DNA from: Erysipelotrichaceae bacterium
GTDB lineage: Bacteria > Bacillota_I > Bacilli_A > Erysipelotrichales > Erysipelotrichaceae
DNA length: 64,000 nucleotides
NCBI GenBank assembly: GCA_017404205.1
Contig: JAFRCV010000003.1
Span: 1-64,000 of the forward strand
Direction of reading: 5' to 3'
The notes under the pieces: model-generated
What the model saw: only the letters and a program-made list of their open reading frames with translations
The model's database searches: none
What the model was told of the DNA's origin: nothing
Shown here: piece after piece, positions 188-17,771 of the stretch
Position numbering within the stretch: the stretch's first letter is position 1
Layout of the letters: each line of letters opens with the position of its first letter
Translations under genes and position numbers: made by a program

Positions 188-2386
188 ATGAAAAAAACAT
201 TAACATTTGTTATTAGTATATTCTTATTCATTTCTTGTTTTTTTATAAACGAAAAAGAAATAAATGCTGTTGGATATCGCGTTGAACTTGTTAGAGGATA
301 TGGAAGAGAAGTTGCAGGAGAAAAGGCGACTTATATATTTGAAAACGGAATTGATACTGGTTATTCTCTAATTGGCTCATTCGCTGGAGAGGTAGATCAA
401 AGCGGGCCAAACACAACAAAAAGGTATTCACAAAAGACAAGTGCTGAAACAAAAGTTACTGGCGTTGATGTATTTTATGGCGATAAAGCACTATACAATA
501 TTACAAGTGGATTACTTATAAAAGAAGATGGAAGTCTTACAAGTACAGTATCAAGCAATGCAACTAGGATATTAAAATTTGCTATTTCTGATACAACTTT
601 CTTTTGTCGTTTTTATTATGTTGCTGATGATTTAACAATAGTGCTTCACTATGCTAATGAAAATAAATTAAGCATAGAAAATATCAATGATTATTCTTCT
701 AATGAAACATATGATACATATTTAAAAGATGAGAACGAATCTTATATTTTAGGTAATTATAATTTGGCTGAAGGATTAAATATTAATATTAATCCTCTAG
801 ATAAAGAAATAGATAGAATAAATTTTGAATTAGATGATAAGAAATTAAGTCTATCTAGATTTGATAATACTTATTATTTATCAAATAATTATTTATTTTC
901 AAATATTCATAATGATGATGATATTTTGGCATACGATAAGAATAATATAACAATCTATAATGCGAATTCAGACATTAATATCAATTATGAATATCGAAAC
1001 AACATAATATTTGATGCATCAGAAGGCAAGTTTGAAGATGGCACAAACATCTATTCCACATTAACTTATAACAATAAAATAGATTATCCAAAAGATCCTA
1101 AAAAAGAAAATACTAATTTTGCGGGTTGGTATGATATCAATGATTATAAAGTTACAAACGATACATTTACTGAAGACACAAGCTTGAAAGCTGTATACAC
1201 CAATAATATTTACGATGTTACTTTTGATTTAAATAAAAAAGCCGAAAATATAATTGAAACAGTTGCTGAGAATTATAAATTAAAAGGCGACATAATACCA
1301 GAGATTGATGGCTATGCTTTTATGGGCTGGTATAGTGATCCCGAATATAAAAACGCTTATGATTTTTCAAAAGCCATCACTTCAAATACAACTATTTATG
1401 GAAAATATTTAAAGATTATTTCTGTTAGATTTAATAACGCAAAATCAATTATTTCAACAAGCTTTGAAAGCCAAATAAAAGATAATGGCTATATAGATTA
1501 CGATAATAATCGAATAATCCTTTTTGATAATTTTAAAAATGAAAATGGAATTAGTGTTGTTGTGAATAATTATGAAGGAAATATAAAAGATATTCTTATA
1601 ACTAATGGAAGTAGAAAAGTCAAAATAAATAAAAATGATATTGAAAACAATACAACTGTTTATGTAGGAAAATGGTTTTGGAAAAGAAAAACAGGAAATA
1701 AAAATAGTATTCTAAAATTTGTTCATTCAAATAAAGCCAACAAAAATGAAGCATTTACAATAACTCTTTACAATATAAAAAAAGATATCGACATCAACAT
1801 AAATTATGCCGATGTTAATTTAACTTATGTACTTGATGGTAAATCATATGACAAGATAATTCCATATAATTCAACTCTTGATATAGTGGTGCCTCAAAAA
1901 GAGGGTGCGATATTTAAGGGCTGGTATATGGATGAAAATTATCTAAATGAATTCAAAATTGATAATAGGATAACAAACGATATAACTTTATATGGAAAAT
2001 ATGAAATTAATCATGAAATAAGATTTGAAAATATAAATAAATTGTCATCTAGTAATTGGAATAGAGTAACAGGCGGCGAAATTAATGAAAATAGCTTAAT
2101 TAGTCTTGGCGATTATTCAAGTAGTGAAGGCATACAAGCAACAATCTTTTGCGATGTAGAAAATATGAAAGCAATTGAATTTGAATATGAAGGCTTTAAG
2201 ACAAGAGTTGATAAAGCTGATTTATATGAAACACATATCTTAGATAAAAACTTTGATTTCGTAGATAAAAGCAAATACGAAAATGGTGACTTGTTAAGGA
2301 TGTATATGTCAAAAGAAGCAAAAAATCAAATAACAATAAGATTCTTTAATATCTTAAGCGATATGAAAATTACAATTGTAAAATAA
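188..2386 (+). CDS. Secreted protein with Listeria-Bacteroides (InlB B-type / Flg_new) repeats
   Basis: A 732-residue exported protein. Residues 1-28 form a signal peptide (MKK start, hydrophobic stretch, Ala-Val-Gly near the end). Three InlB B-type modules can be seen. Each has a central GWY (about residues 313, 378 and 576) and two or three end in a Y/A-GKY or AVY strand; they start near residues 271, 341 and 542. This is the beta-grasp repeat family of Gram-positive surface proteins. No LPXTG motif, C-terminal membrane anchor, LysM or SLH domain is visible, so it is probably released or held by an unknown partner. A TATAAT at 159-164 gives a short leader without a good SD. The gene stands alone, bounded by terminators on both sides. 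The repeat call is firm; the function (adhesion, surface) is inferred. Confidence 0.8.
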   Translation: MKKTLTFVISIFLFISCFFINEKEINAVGYRVELVRGYGREVAGEKATYIFENGIDTGYSLIGSFAGEVDQSGPNTTKRYSQKTSAETKVTGVDVFYGDKALYNITSGLLIKEDGSLTSTVSSNATRILKFAISDTTFFCRFYYVADDLTIVLHYANENKLSIENINDYSSNETYDTYLKDENESYILGNYNLAEGLNININPLDKEIDRINFELDDKKLSLSRFDNTYYLSNNYLFSNIHNDDDILAYDKNNITIYNANSDININYEYRNNIIFDASEGKFEDGTNIYSTLTYNNKIDYPKDPKKENTNFAGWYDINDYKVTNDTFTEDTSLKAVYTNNIYDVTFDLNKKAENIIETVAENYKLKGDIIPEIDGYAFMGWYSDPEYKNAYDFSKAITSNTTIYGKYLKIISVRFNNAKSIISTSFESQIKDNGYIDYDNNRIILFDNFKNENGISVVVNNYEGNIKDILITNGSRKVKINKNDIENNTTVYVGKWFWKRKTGNKNSILKFVHSNKANKNEAFTITLYNIKKDIDININYADVNLTYVLDGKSYDKIIPYNSTLDIVVPQKEGAIFKGWYMDENYLNEFKIDNRITNDITLYGKYEINHEIRFENINKLSSSNWNRVTGGEINENSLISLGDYSSSEGIQATIFCDVENMKAIEFEYEGFKTRVDKADLYETHILDKNFDFVDKSKYENGDLLRMYMSKEAKNQITIRFFNILSDMKITIVK

Positions 2387-2390
2387 TTAA

Positions 2391-2416
2391 AAACAAATCT
2401 CATTTGAGATTTGTTT
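2391..2416. terminator. Bidirectional terminator between convergent genes
   Basis: A 12-bp perfect inverted repeat (2391-2402 with 2405-2416) sits between the stops of the secreted-protein gene and the exchanger gene. T-rich DNA follows on both strands, more strongly on the minus strand. Confidence 0.8.
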
Positions 2417-2421
2417 AGTAT

Positions 2422-3381
2422 TTATAGAAAGAATTGAATTCCACAATAGCAAGCATAAATTATTAGTAATGTGATACCTTGCCATCTATATAAACGTCCT
2501 TTAATTAATGGTGGCAAAACAAGTAATGCCATAACTGACAACATTACTGGTATATCAAGAATAAATGAAGCATTCATTCCAAATAAAACTTTTTCTACTG
2601 GAACAGCAAATGGCGATAAAGCAATTGATACACCAGATACTAAAACAAGATTGAATAGATTTGCACCAATAATGTTTCCAAGAGACAATAAGCCATGTCC
2701 CTTTCTTAATGATGTTATGGCTGTAACAAGCTCAGGCAACGAAGTTCCTAGTGCAACAAATGTCAAAGCAATTACTGATTCTGGAACACCTAAGCCTTTC
2801 GCAATTATCGTACCATTATCTACTAAGAAGTCTGCACCAAAAGCAATAGCGATAGCACCTAAGACAAGAAATAAAATATCTTTCCATAATGGCGTGTTTT
2901 GTTCTTCTTCAATTTCTTCTTCAGTTTTATTTTCTTTAGCAGATTTAATTTGAAGAATTATATAAACAACAAAAATTGAAAGCAAGATAATACCTTCAAG
3001 TCTTGTAAAGAAAGCATCGCCATACGCAAATATACAATACAATAAAGCGGCTGTAAAAAAGAAAATAACAGGAAGCTTCATTGTTTTTTTGTTTACTGTA
3101 GATGGTTTAGCAGCAATTGTAATTGCACAAATTAAAGCAGTATTACAAATAATTGAACCAATTGCATTTCCATAAGCAATTTGTGGATGCCCCTCTAAGG
3201 CACCTGTAGCACTTACCATAACTTCTGGTAAGGTTGTGCCAATTGATACAACCGTAGCACCAATTAATAGATCTGGTACATGAAATTTTTTAGCAATTCC
3301 AGTAGCACCATCAACAAACTTATCGCCACCAATAATTAATAGCACAAGACCAACAATAAATAATAAAATAGCAACTAACAT
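2422..3381 (-). CDS. CaCA-family cation/Na+ (or H+) exchanger, YrbG-like
   Basis: A 319-residue integral membrane exchanger with the two inverted alpha-repeats of the CaCA family. Repeat 1 has GTTLPE (residues 48-53) and GNAIGS (71-76); repeat 2 has GTSLPE (211-216) and GNIIGAN (234-240). An acidic cytosolic loop (about 148-165, many Glu) lies between the halves. The family usually moves Ca2+ out against Na+ or H+. The ATG overlaps the mntP stop by one base (TAATG) and has a G-rich SD inside mntP, so it is translationally coupled to mntP and lies under the Mn2+ riboswitch. That context suggests Mn2+ or mixed Mn2+/Ca2+ export here; this is inference. Confidence 0.88.
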   Translation of the reverse strand: MLVAILLFIVGLVLLIIGGDKFVDGATGIAKKFHVPDLLIGATVVSIGTTLPEVMVSATGALEGHPQIAYGNAIGSIICNTALICAITIAAKPSTVNKKTMKLPVIFFFTAALLYCIFAYGDAFFTRLEGIILLSIFVVYIILQIKSAKENKTEEEIEEEQNTPLWKDILFLVLGAIAIAFGADFLVDNGTIIAKGLGVPESVIALTFVALGTSLPELVTAITSLRKGHGLLSLGNIIGANLFNLVLVSGVSIALSPFAVPVEKVLFGMNASFILDIPVMLSVMALLVLPPLIKGRLYRWQGITLLIIYACYCGIQFFL

Positions 3382-3947
3382 TAAATAACCCCCGAGATAA
3401 ATATCTTTATTCCTACAATTATCAATATAATTCCACCAATAATTGGTGCATTATTAGATAATTTGTTACCACCTTTTTTCCCTATATAGTAAGCAATTAA
3501 ACATAAGATAAAAGTAACAATTCCAATAATTAATGCTTCATATAAAGCTTTTGAAAATGAGTAAGCAATCATTGTCAAGCCAACTGACAATGCATCAATA
3601 GATGTTGCGATCGCTTGAATGACAAGAACAGAAAAGTTTAAGCTTACTTTTTCTTCTTTCTTGTCTTTTTCAACAATCATTTTGATACCGATATAAAGAA
3701 GCAAGATTAATGCAAGATATGGAACAATTTTATTAATAATTTCAAATTTTTCTGCTAATTGAGAAGTAAGATGCCAACCAATTAAAGGCATTAAAGCTTG
3801 AAACAGTCCAAAGACAAAGACCATCAGTAAGACATCTTTAAAATTCATTTTAGGCTTATTTAAACCATTAGCTAAGGAAATTGAAAAAGCATCCATCGCT
3901 AATCCTATTCCTAATAAAAATGCATTAATAATAAAATTGTGTTCCAT
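3381..3947 (-). CDS. mntP: Manganese efflux pump MntP
   Basis: A 188-residue, six-helix membrane protein of the MntP family, which exports Mn2+. The two conserved membrane aspartates are present in AMDAF (Asp19) and TSIDA (Asp118), matching the E. coli pair. The start at 3947 (MEHNF) was chosen because it aligns with the family N-terminus. In-frame ATGs at 4001, 3989 and 3971 would add a hydrophobic tail encoded by the riboswitch terminator. The chosen ATG directly follows the terminator U-tract and has no SD, so the true start is uncertain. A yybP-ykoY riboswitch upstream and a coupled CaCA exchanger downstream support a Mn detoxification role. Confidence 0.92.
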   Translation of the reverse strand: MEHNFIINAFLLGIGLAMDAFSISLANGLNKPKMNFKDVLLMVFVFGLFQALMPLIGWHLTSQLAEKFEIINKIVPYLALILLLYIGIKMIVEKDKKEEKVSLNFSVLVIQAIATSIDALSVGLTMIAYSFSKALYEALIIGIVTFILCLIAYYIGKKGGNKLSNNAPIIGGIILIIVGIKIFISGVI

Positions 3948-3950
3948 AAA

Positions 3951-3980
3951 AAAAATAAAAGCTTGTGTCATACACAAGCT
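3951..3980 (-). terminator. Riboswitch-controlled intrinsic terminator before mntP
   Basis: Read on the minus strand: a perfect 9-bp stem (3980-3972 with 3968-3960), a 3-base loop, then a T-rich run ending at the mntP ATG. It is the likely expression platform of the manganese aptamer. Confidence 0.85.
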
Positions 3981-3998
3981 AACACTCATGTATAACAA

Positions 3999-4080
3999 CA
4001 TGAGTCTCGCAAATTAAGATAAGCCAGGCTTAGAGCCATGATGTTGTACTTATCACCTTTAGGCTTGCTACTCCCTCAGT
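3999..4080 (-). promoter_or_regulatory. yybP-ykoY (Mn2+) riboswitch aptamer
   Basis: The minus strand has the hallmark GGGAGTAGC near the 5' end and GCGAGA near the 3' end. They are flanked by TGAG and CTCA, which close helix P1, as in the B. subtilis element. The family senses Mn2+ and turns on exporters when Mn2+ is high. A second inverted repeat (3984-3990 with 3999-4005) would compete with P1. The downstream gene is mntP, the classic target. Confidence 0.93.
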
Positions 4081-4086
4081 AAGTAA

Positions 4087-4115
4087 ATACTATCATTTTA
4101 TGAAAATTACTTCAA
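4087..4115 (-). promoter_or_regulatory. Promoter of the mntP riboswitch operon
   Basis: On the minus strand, TTGAAG (4115-4110), a 17-base spacer and TAGTAT (4092-4087) with an upstream TG. Transcription would begin near 4080, the first base of the aptamer. Confidence 0.65.
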
Positions 4116-14508: not shown

Positions 14509-14517
14509 TGTTATAAT
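14509..14517 (+). promoter_or_regulatory. Extended -10 promoter, leaderless start of the HTH/RCC1 gene
   Basis: TG-T-TATAAT (TATAAT at 14512-14517) lies 6 bases before the ATG at 14524. No SD is present and no good -35 is seen. Confidence 0.6.
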
Positions 14518-14523
14518 TGTTTT

Positions 14524-16269
14524 ATGAATTACTTACCAAGTAAGCTTTTAAAATTGCGTAAACATTATAATTATTCTCAAGCTCATCTTGCGGAGCTTTT
14601 AAAAGTTGATGTTATGGAATATATGGCTTATGAAAATGGACGCAAAATTCCAAGTTATGAAGAATGTCAAACAATTGCCAACTTATATCACATAAGTATT
14701 GATGAAATAATTAAAAATAGTGATGAAGTGACTTTATATAATGTTTCTAGTTCTAGGACCGATGAAATAAATATTGAATATTTTTTACCTAAAAAGAATT
14801 TCTTTGATTATTTAAAAGAATTTGTTAAAAATCATGGCATATTGGTAGGGACAACAATTGGTGTTGTTTTATTAGGACTGTTGGTAATTGGTTTATTTAC
14901 AAATAAAGAAGAAATACCATATAGTTTAAATTTATTAAATATAAATCGTTTATCAGTATCGGAAACAACAGTTGTATATATTTATGGTGATGGTGCTGTA
15001 AAAGGAAGTGGTGATAATTCGAAAGGGCAGCTTTCTAATTTACCATCAAGTAATGCTATTAAAGTTGGCGAAGGCAGTGATTTTACAATTATTTTAAATA
15101 GCGATGGAACAGTGAGTTATGTTGGCTTGGATAAAGAACTTGAAGCTGAATTAAAACAATGGCATAACATCATTGATATAGCTGCTGGTGATAAACACAT
15201 TGTTGGAGTTGATCAAAGAGGATATGTTTTTGCTATTGGTGATAATAGTTTTGGCCAATGTGAAGTCTCATCTTTTAAAAACATAAAAAAAGTCTATGCA
15301 ACAAAAAATGCCACTATTGTTTTAGACAATGAAGGTATCTTATCTTCAACTGGTGAATTCATTGGATCTAGCAAGATACAAAGTTTCGCAAATGTAATAG
15401 ATTTAGATGCTAGCGATGATAATCTTGTTGTCCTAGATGAAAATGGTTCTGTTGAATATATCGCAAAAAACAAAAATTTTTTAAACATCTATAAATGGCA
15501 AAATGTTGTGGATGTATGTTGCGGTGATAATTTTGTAGCTGCTTTATTAAAAGATGGTAGTGTTGTTGTTGATTGTGATGATGAAAAAATAACTAAACAA
15601 GTTTCTAAATGGGAAAACATTATCGCCATTGATGCAGGCAACGATTATTTAATTGCTTACGATGGAGAAAAAATATATGGTGTTGGTAAAAATGATTACC
15701 AACAATTTGAAGGCGAAGCACATCAAGAAATATTAGCGCAAGTGACTAATGTAAAAATTGCGATAAATGATACAATCGATGTCACATTTGATTCTGTCGA
15801 AGGTGCTAGCGGTTATGAATTAAGATTAAATGCTGGCGAGGGTAATGTTAAAAAAGTGTCTTCTAATCAAATTGTAAGTTTCTTTAGTGATGGCCTTGAA
15901 AATGGCAACAATTATCAAATCACAATTACGGCTTTAGGAGACGGGGAGTATTATTTAGATTCAGATCCATTAATGTTAAATTTTACATATATCAAAGAAG
16001 AAAAAAACAATGAAGAAGAATATGTTGATATTAATGTTAATTTTACAGATATGGATGAAGAACAATTAAAAGAATATTTAAATTCTATTGGTATCAGTAA
16101 TATCATATGCGTAGAAACTGCTAGTCCTTGTGAAGAAGGCGGTCACACAATTATTTCTGTTGATGGAATTTCTAGTGGCCAAAGGATTGCGAAAAGAGAT
16201 TTAGCCAAAGCGATGGTTACATATTACACATGTAAGATTCCAGAAAATGAAGGTGTAGATAATGAATAA
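14524..16269 (+). CDS. Membrane-anchored HTH protein with extracytoplasmic RCC1-like, FN3-like and PASTA-like domains
   Basis: A 581-residue multi-domain protein. Residues about 3-62 form an XRE-type helix-turn-helix. A single TM helix spans about 104-127 (GTTIGVVLLGLLVIGLF). Residues about 140-405 contain RCC1-like blades with repeated A-x-G-x-x-H/F and D-G-x-V/S units (for example GDNSKGQ, IAAGDKHIVGV, GDNSFGQ). About 413-500 resembles a fibronectin III domain (VTFDSVEGASGYELRL). About 505-575 has the spacing of a degenerate PASTA domain (DMDEEQLKEYLNSIGI ... SSGQRIAK). The architecture suggests that an outside signal controls DNA binding or clustering at the membrane; this is inference. 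It is first in the unit with the GYF_2-like gene and cysS. Confidence 0.8.
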   Translation: MNYLPSKLLKLRKHYNYSQAHLAELLKVDVMEYMAYENGRKIPSYEECQTIANLYHISIDEIIKNSDEVTLYNVSSSRTDEINIEYFLPKKNFFDYLKEFVKNHGILVGTTIGVVLLGLLVIGLFTNKEEIPYSLNLLNINRLSVSETTVVYIYGDGAVKGSGDNSKGQLSNLPSSNAIKVGEGSDFTIILNSDGTVSYVGLDKELEAELKQWHNIIDIAAGDKHIVGVDQRGYVFAIGDNSFGQCEVSSFKNIKKVYATKNATIVLDNEGILSSTGEFIGSSKIQSFANVIDLDASDDNLVVLDENGSVEYIAKNKNFLNIYKWQNVVDVCCGDNFVAALLKDGSVVVDCDDEKITKQVSKWENIIAIDAGNDYLIAYDGEKIYGVGKNDYQQFEGEAHQEILAQVTNVKIAINDTIDVTFDSVEGASGYELRLNAGEGNVKKVSSNQIVSFFSDGLENGNNYQITITALGDGEYYLDSDPLMLNFTYIKEEKNNEEEYVDINVNFTDMDEEQLKEYLNSIGISNIICVETASPCEEGGHTIISVDGISSGQRIAKRDLAKAMVTYYTCKIPENEGVDNE

Positions 16270-16450
16270 GATTTGGAAAATAAGAGGTTTTGAAGGCAAA
16301 TTCGCTGATGAAGAATTAATTAAAATGATTAAAGAAGGACGCCTTTTAGCCAGTGATTATATAAGCACAAAAGACATGAAAAATTGGATTAAGATAGAAG
16401 ATTCTATTTATCAATTCTATTTACGAAGGGAGAAATATGAAACTATATAA
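16262..16450 (+). CDS. Small GYF_2 (DUF4339)-like protein
   Basis: A 62-residue protein overlapping the gene before it by 8 bases and cysS by 14. The pattern W-x-I-R-G-F-E-G-K-F ... EELIKMIKEGRLLASDYIS ... MKNWIKIED fits a single GYF_2/DUF4339 domain, usually a peptide-binding module. It has no TM segment or extra domain. Overlaps on both sides indicate translational coupling and support it being a real gene despite its size. A role as partner of the membrane HTH protein is a guess. Confidence 0.65.
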   Translation: MNKIWKIRGFEGKFADEELIKMIKEGRLLASDYISTKDMKNWIKIEDSIYQFYLRREKYETI

Positions 16451-17771
16451 TAGCTATTCATTAAAAGAAGAAGAGTTCAAGCCAATTAAAGAAGGCGAAG
16501 TTAGTATGTATGTTTGTGGGCCAACGGTTTATAATCATGCCCATATTGGTAACGCTAGACCAATAGTTGTTTTTGACACATTAAGAAGAGTATTTGAAGC
16601 ATTAAATTATAAAGTTAAATTTGTTTCTAATTTTACGGATGTTGATGACAAAATTATTAATAAAGCATTAGAAGAAGGTGTATCTGAAAAGGAAATAGCT
16701 GAAAGATATATAAAAGCTTACAATGATGTGCGCAACAGTTTAAATATAATTCCAATTGATGTAACTCCAAGAGTTACAGAAACAATGGATGAGATTATTG
16801 ATTTTATTGATAAATTAGTCAAAGAAGGAAACGCTTATGAAGTAGATGGCGACGTATTCTTTTCTGTAGAATCAGATAAAAAGTATGGTGAATTATCTCA
16901 TCAAAAATTAGAAGATTTAGATGCAGGCGCAAGAGTTAATATTGGCGATACAAAAAGAAATCCATTGGATTTCGCGCTATGGAAAAAGACCGACAAAGGA
17001 ATTAAATGGAATTCTCCTTGGGGAGAAGGAAGACCTGGATGGCATACTGAATGTGTTGTCATGATTGGTAAAGAATTTAATGGCGGCATGATTGATATTC
17101 ATGGTGGTGGCAAAGACTTAAAATTCCCACATCATGAAAATGAAATGGCTCAATCAGAATGTGTTAATCATCATCATTTAGCCAACTACTGGATACATAA
17201 TGGCATGCTAGAAACAAAAGGCGGCAAGATGTCTAAGTCTTTAGGAAATACAAGCTGGGCTAAAGATGTAATTAAAGAGTATGGAAGTAATCTTGTCAGA
17301 TGGTTTTTATTAAGTGCTAAATATCGTGATTCATTAATATATGATGATGAAACCTTTAATGCTGCAAAAGTGGAATTAAATAAAATCGAAACAGCTTTAA
17401 AACAAGCAGAAGTTAAAGTTCAAACTAATGGTAAGTGCTTTAGTAATGAATATAATCAAGAAAAGTATCAAGAATTCTTAAGTCAAATGGAAGATGACTT
17501 AAATACACCAAATGCTTATATGGTAATTTTTGATACAGTAAAATTATTAAATCAAGCACTTCGCATGAAAGATATTAATTTTGATGAAGTAAGTAAACAT
17601 TATAATGCAATTAAGAAGATGTTAAATATCTTAGGTATTGATATTGAAGAAGTAAAGATGAGTGAAGATGATTTAAATATTTATCAAAAGTGGAATGATG
17701 CAAAAGCAATAAAAGACTATGAAAATGCTGATAAATACCGTAGTCAATTAATTGAAAAAGGTATCCTTTAA
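16437..17771 (+). CDS. cysS: Cysteinyl-tRNA synthetase
   Basis: A 444-residue class I synthetase. HIGH is present as HIGN (in GPTVYNHAHIGNAR, about residues 27-40) and KMSKS lies near residue 263. Zn ligands are visible in MYVCGP, HTECV and HHENEM. It charges tRNA-Cys. Length is slightly below the usual 460. A strong GGGAG SD lies in the preceding ORF. No T-box leader is present. It is followed immediately by mrnC, the conserved Firmicute order. Confidence 0.98.
   Translation: MKLYNSYSLKEEEFKPIKEGEVSMYVCGPTVYNHAHIGNARPIVVFDTLRRVFEALNYKVKFVSNFTDVDDKIINKALEEGVSEKEIAERYIKAYNDVRNSLNIIPIDVTPRVTETMDEIIDFIDKLVKEGNAYEVDGDVFFSVESDKKYGELSHQKLEDLDAGARVNIGDTKRNPLDFALWKKTDKGIKWNSPWGEGRPGWHTECVVMIGKEFNGGMIDIHGGGKDLKFPHHENEMAQSECVNHHHLANYWIHNGMLETKGGKMSKSLGNTSWAKDVIKEYGSNLVRWFLLSAKYRDSLIYDDETFNAAKVELNKIETALKQAEVKVQTNGKCFSNEYNQEKYQEFLSQMEDDLNTPNAYMVIFDTVKLLNQALRMKDINFDEVSKHYNAIKKMLNILGIDIEEVKMSEDDLNIYQKWNDAKAIKDYENADKYRSQLIEKGIL

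Follow-up and report, generated by a model that had tools for sequence, protein, structure and literature searches.

The window analysed here is a 64,000-nucleotide stretch of an Erysipelotrichaceae genome, and the features mapped on it below lie on its forward strand. Positions 14524 to 16269 hold an open reading frame, placed as in the preliminary description, for a 581-residue protein in which an HTH, a transmembrane (TM) helix, an RCC1 propeller, an fn3-like domain and a PASTA-like domain follow one another, as established from the ORF list, Pfam, an orthologue alignment and AlphaFold2. An XRE/Cro-type HTH with a non-canonical acidic and hydrophobic recognition helix occupied residues 1-67 (14524 to 14724), and both HTH_19 and HTH_3 matched above their cut-offs at residues 7-67. 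It was followed by a juxtamembrane motif, TDEINIEYF (residues 79-87; 14758 to 14784), a candidate docking motif. The HTH and this motif were the best conserved parts of the protein, and the motif was the most conserved stretch in the genus family (mean majority identity 0.92) despite being modelled with low confidence (pLDDT <50). The sole strong hydrophobic segment by hydropathy was residues 104-127 (14833 to 14904), modelled by AlphaFold2 as a helix spanning 105-126. The count of lysine and arginine was 4.4 before this TM helix and 2.3 after it, which places the N terminus, and with it the HTH, inside the cell.

Residues ~140-395 (14941 to 15708) form an RCC1/BLIP-II-type beta-propeller that is predicted to be extracellular. 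RCC1_2 matched the protein above its cut-off at 70 bits, and HTH and RCC1 profile matches were found in 30 of 30 aligned orthologues. An AlphaFold2 model built with a 30-sequence alignment had a mean pLDDT of 84, with most of the propeller region above 90; prediction from the single sequence gave a pLDDT of 39 and a model that was not usable. Foldseek matched the propeller to BLIP-II (E 1e-16; TM-score 0.67-0.71 on the target) and also to RCC1. VIA gave Z scores of 22-24 against CRINKLY4, UVR8, RCC1 and BLIP-II (23 for BLIP-II), and since the propeller took up both the VIA and the Foldseek match lists, these structural matches bear on the propeller and not on the HTH or the tail. Two cysteines of the propeller, C246 and C333, were invariant in the orthologue alignment. 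The protein shares the fold of BLIP-II and RCC1 propellers and, like BLIP-II, would carry it outside the cell, but differs in being membrane-anchored with an HTH inside and in showing no sign of a beta-lactamase target. Propellers of this type are a known protein-binding fold (PMC9218822). The domain order and topology of the preliminary description, and the propeller fold it implied for the RCC1-like repeats, were borne out by Pfam, hydropathy and AlphaFold2.

The two distal domains were less sharply defined. Residues 398-490 (15715 to 15993) form an fn3-like beta domain, for which the fn3 profile (PF00041) matched 4 of 30 short-form members with a best E of 0.024, and a search of PDB profiles returned weak fn3 matches. 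The FN3-like segment of the preliminary description is therefore weak in this protein, but it is clear in a long homologue, L077, at 50.5 bits. The end of the protein, residues 501-572 (16024 to 16239), includes two further invariant cysteines, C536 and C570. When the tail was searched in isolation, the only Pfam match was PASTA (PF03793; E 0.053, 13.9 bits against a gathering cut-off of 23.2), and a small home-made PASTA profile, run against 30 sequences, aligned with one orthologue over its entire tail (E 3e-4). The degenerate PASTA domain first described is thus the sole Pfam candidate for the tail, but a marginal one. Against PDB profiles the tail matched only fatty-acid-binding proteins, which look like chance matches and were set aside.

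Upstream of the gene, an extended -10 element, TGTTATAAT (14509 to 14517), ends 6 nucleotides before the start codon. There is no Shine-Dalgarno sequence, and the start is of a leaderless type. A TAnnnT box ending 6-9 nucleotides before the start was found in 39 of 44 homologues and its TGn extension in 29 of 44, while Shine-Dalgarno-like sequences preceded 3 of 44 homologues versus 30 of 45 control genes. The upstream information content peaked only at the extended -10. The arrangement TGnTAnAAT-N6-ATG, of which positions 14509-14526 are an example, occurred 80 times in the genome versus 30 for a reversed control, and 24 of about 30 fetched sites opened reading frames of at least 98 residues. 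Starts of this type precede, by eye, dnaX, ruvA, murG, truB and pgsA, among others. A leaderless start as a gene-specific regulatory feature was rejected, as the arrangement is genome-wide. To our knowledge, an enrichment of leaderless-type starts has not been reported for Erysipelotrichaceae. In a published survey, most of the leaderless genes found among Firmicutes came from Lactobacillales and Mycoplasma (PMC3160421).

The gene had been described as heading a transcript that runs into cysS. It does head a tight string of genes that runs into cysS (16437 to 17771), but a conserved gene between the two had been missed. This gene (16262 to 16450) overlaps both the preceding stop codon and the cysS start, and encodes a 62-residue GYF_2-like protein. 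The differences between this reading frame and its closest relative fell 12/9/30 over the three codon positions, indicating a real protein gene. The window copy is degenerate and matched GYF_2 (PF14237) just below the cut-off (E 1.6e-4; 21.8 bits against a gathering threshold of 25.8), but many homologues in the same position exceeded it, reaching 42.5 bits, and 12 of 16 aligned members of the small-protein set matched the profile. Set beside known GYF_2 proteins, the small partner looks like a domain of that kind standing alone. In the literature searched, no function of bacterial GYF_2 domains was found.

Of 55 loci examined, some of them from the same genome, 53 had a GYF_2-like gene immediately 3' of the one for the propeller protein. 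In a PF14237 search of 48 genomes, all 19 of the short GYF_2 reading frames found were directly downstream of a propeller gene. The gene 3' of the pair varied: it was mostly cysS, elsewhere a DUF2238-like gene and then cysS, and in one group mutL-miaA, with gapA upstream of the pair. Because the GYF gene stays adjacent where cysS is replaced, the conserved unit consists of the propeller protein and the GYF protein. For the same reason cysS was rejected as a functional partner; it is probably an old, incidental neighbour with no functional link. This pairing with GYF_2 is the chief new finding of the analysis, and the GYF_2 partner is a more informative neighbour than cysS. The main exception to the pairing is locus L071, where the propeller protein (2289-4094) ends in a tail rich in Thr and Pro and no downstream GYF_2 gene was found. 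In some genera a membrane protein of about 235 residues, DUF2238-like by eye, is encoded between the GYF gene and cysS (L061, 5897-6601; L070, 5934-6659); no Pfam match was found for the proteins of these two loci.

Homologues were retrieved by an alignment-based search of contigs; a single-protein search of the contigs gave none. In the genus set of 36 genomes, all but 3 encode a full-length orthologue, at 36-68% identity. Across the order (295 genomes), strong homologues, either full-length or of the long form, were seen in a single Erysipelotrichaceae-type family, where at least 13 genera have them; none was found in the order's other family. In a phylum-wide sample of 392 genomes, 14 of 14 matches fell in the same family and none outside it. 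The carriers belong to Erysipelotrichaceae and are for the most part MAGs from gut and rumen (Solobacterium sp., Candidatus Colivicinus equi), together with strain OH741_COT-311, whose record (RQZE01000015; L068) includes the gene pair and bears no MAG label. Two forms were distinguished: a short form of ~570-610 residues with a PASTA-like tail, as in the window, and a long form of about 700-900 residues, in which an extended acidic linker containing Thr and Pro separates the HTH from the TM helix. In the one long form checked with Pfam, the propeller is followed by fn3 domains. A literature search returned no paper joining RCC1, GYF and HTH.

The protein had been interpreted as a one-component sensor linking the cell wall to DNA. 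In a reading of this kind it would be a CadC/ToxR-like regulator whose ectodomain would sense a wall ligand and whose HTH would bind promoters. Its topology, a cytosolic HTH joined by one TM helix to a large ectodomain, is that of a TM regulator, an established class of membrane-bound proteins (PMC10269533); any role of the protein in transcription would be putative. The recognition helix of 57 HTHs of the family was compared with that of 28 XRE HTHs taken from related genomes and of 9 HTHs of the RodZ type. Its exposed positions were polar or basic in the 28 XRE controls (S-R-Q-T-x-S-K, x read as V), versus a nearly invariant D-(T/V)-L-E-x-M-(N/G) in the family, x being Y. The mean charge of these positions was -1.79 in the family and +1.04 in the XRE controls, and of 6 exposed positions 2.9 versus 0.8 were non-polar. 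Y33 and M34 were invariant in the family HTHs, although the family sequences had been gathered partly with a pattern containing EYM-x-x-ENG, so that selection helped the invariance of those letters. Two independent alignments (A1 and A2) gave the same pattern, and distant long forms also carried it. The polar or basic helix expected of a DNA-reading HTH thus appears to be lacking from the family.

S18/Q19 and N38/G39, residues of the type that hold DNA phosphates in XRE repressors, were retained, and helix 1 is basic (KLRKHY); together these leave DNA binding possible. An unusual, conserved recognition helix is also conceivable for a narrow, single-copy regulator. Against regulation, no operator-like element was conserved upstream of the propeller gene among 30 genus orthologues, in which only the extended -10 was clearly conserved, and the near-constant GYF_2 partner has no role in a regulator. 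In comparison with the CadC/ToxR class and with the XRE protein BcrR, the protein likewise fuses a DNA-binding-type domain to a TM helix, but its recognition helix does not look DNA-reading, its ectodomain is of the RCC1/fn3/PASTA-like kind and it has a near-constant small partner. The earlier interpretation is thus not favoured: we consider a TM transcription regulator rather unlikely and, judging from the sequences, a DNA-linked sensor possible, with a protein scaffold the likelier of the two. We read the HTH as one that has probably been converted to protein docking.

A protein-docking HTH in the membrane has a precedent in RodZ, and we weighed whether this could be a morphogenesis protein of the RodZ type, with an HTH serving as anchor for MreB filaments. 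The two proteins share an XRE-like HTH inside, a single TM helix and a beta-rich part outside, and the HTH of both is probably for protein binding, as is known for that of RodZ (PMC5073135). They differ in HTH subfamily and ectodomain, in the GYF_2 partner found here and in the lack of MreB from the genome. Neither HTH_25 nor DUF4115 matched the 581-residue protein at E up to 1, and the HTH_25 matches of the window's genome lie elsewhere than this gene. In that genome, which is 99.7% complete, RodZ was absent and the sole MreB match was a DnaK-sized reading frame of 606 residues. Where MreB is present, in six other genomes (G063, G074, G111, G121, G145 and G202), a separate RodZ is encoded beside the propeller protein. 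As the window's genome has neither MreB nor RodZ, MreB anchoring is excluded there, and we regard a RodZ-type role as highly improbable.

A further possibility is that the protein belongs to the PrkC pathway, in which a PASTA kinase would phosphorylate its cytosolic linker and the protein would relay or scaffold the signal. The preliminary description had envisaged signalling without a kinase, a phrase that needs care, since the genome does encode a Ser/Thr kinase with PASTA domains, as well as a penicillin-binding protein that carries them. T-[IVMRT]-[VIM] motifs were enriched in the acidic linkers of long forms (13 observed versus 2.9 expected), although the motif was picked after the sequences had been viewed, and they resemble, by eye, PTIV segments in PrkC juxtamembrane regions (L127 and L128). 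The repeated T-[IVMR]-[VI] motifs between the HTH and the TM helix in L077, L079, L075 and L124 are possible phosphorylation sites. However, the short form in the window has no long Thr-rich linker, its PASTA-like tail is only marginal, and PASTA domains were present in 25 of 25 genomes searched, so that no correlation can be drawn. Like PrkC, the protein is single-pass with a PASTA-like extracellular end, but it has no kinase, its PASTA match is below the cut-off, and a propeller and fn3 are added. Membership of the pathway is improbable in our estimation, and we treat the connection with PrkC as no more than a lead. A protein of ~570 residues composed of PASTA-like repeats and devoid of a kinase domain was also seen in another genome (L125; G014:C14), with a shortened version in the window's genome (L126; G000:C19); its gene adjoins, by eye, one for a MatE-type transporter.

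Returning to protein docking, our preferred reading, held at about even odds, is that the protein is a single-pass TM scaffold or receptor in which the HTH acts as a docking domain together with the GYF adaptor. The propeller, fn3 and PASTA-like parts would form an extracellular arm that engages a partner, protein or glycan, on the surface of the wall or membrane; the PASTA-like tail suggests that this ligand is possibly wall-related. Inside the cell, the HTH fold and the TDEINIEYF motif would provide a docking platform for proteins and not for DNA, and one or both may bind the 62-residue GYF_2-like protein, as a putative cytosolic adaptor, and another cytosolic partner. Taking both genes together, we tentatively propose, at a little under even chance, that they constitute a previously undescribed two-protein TM module found only in Erysipelotrichaceae-type bacteria. 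A repurposed XRE HTH docking head and a stand-alone GYF_2 adaptor would here connect cytosolic machinery with an extracellular RCC1 propeller and its PASTA-like or fn3 arm, even in bacteria that lack MreB.

These observations caution against an annotation of the protein as no more than a transcriptional regulator. The known example of an XRE-type HTH that is anchored in the membrane and serves protein binding is RodZ; if the proposed module is real, it would be a second independent case and would make membrane XRE-HTH docking a reusable design. It would also offer a defined, single-copy module through which surface sensing or wall assembly could be studied in gut bacteria without the MreB system.
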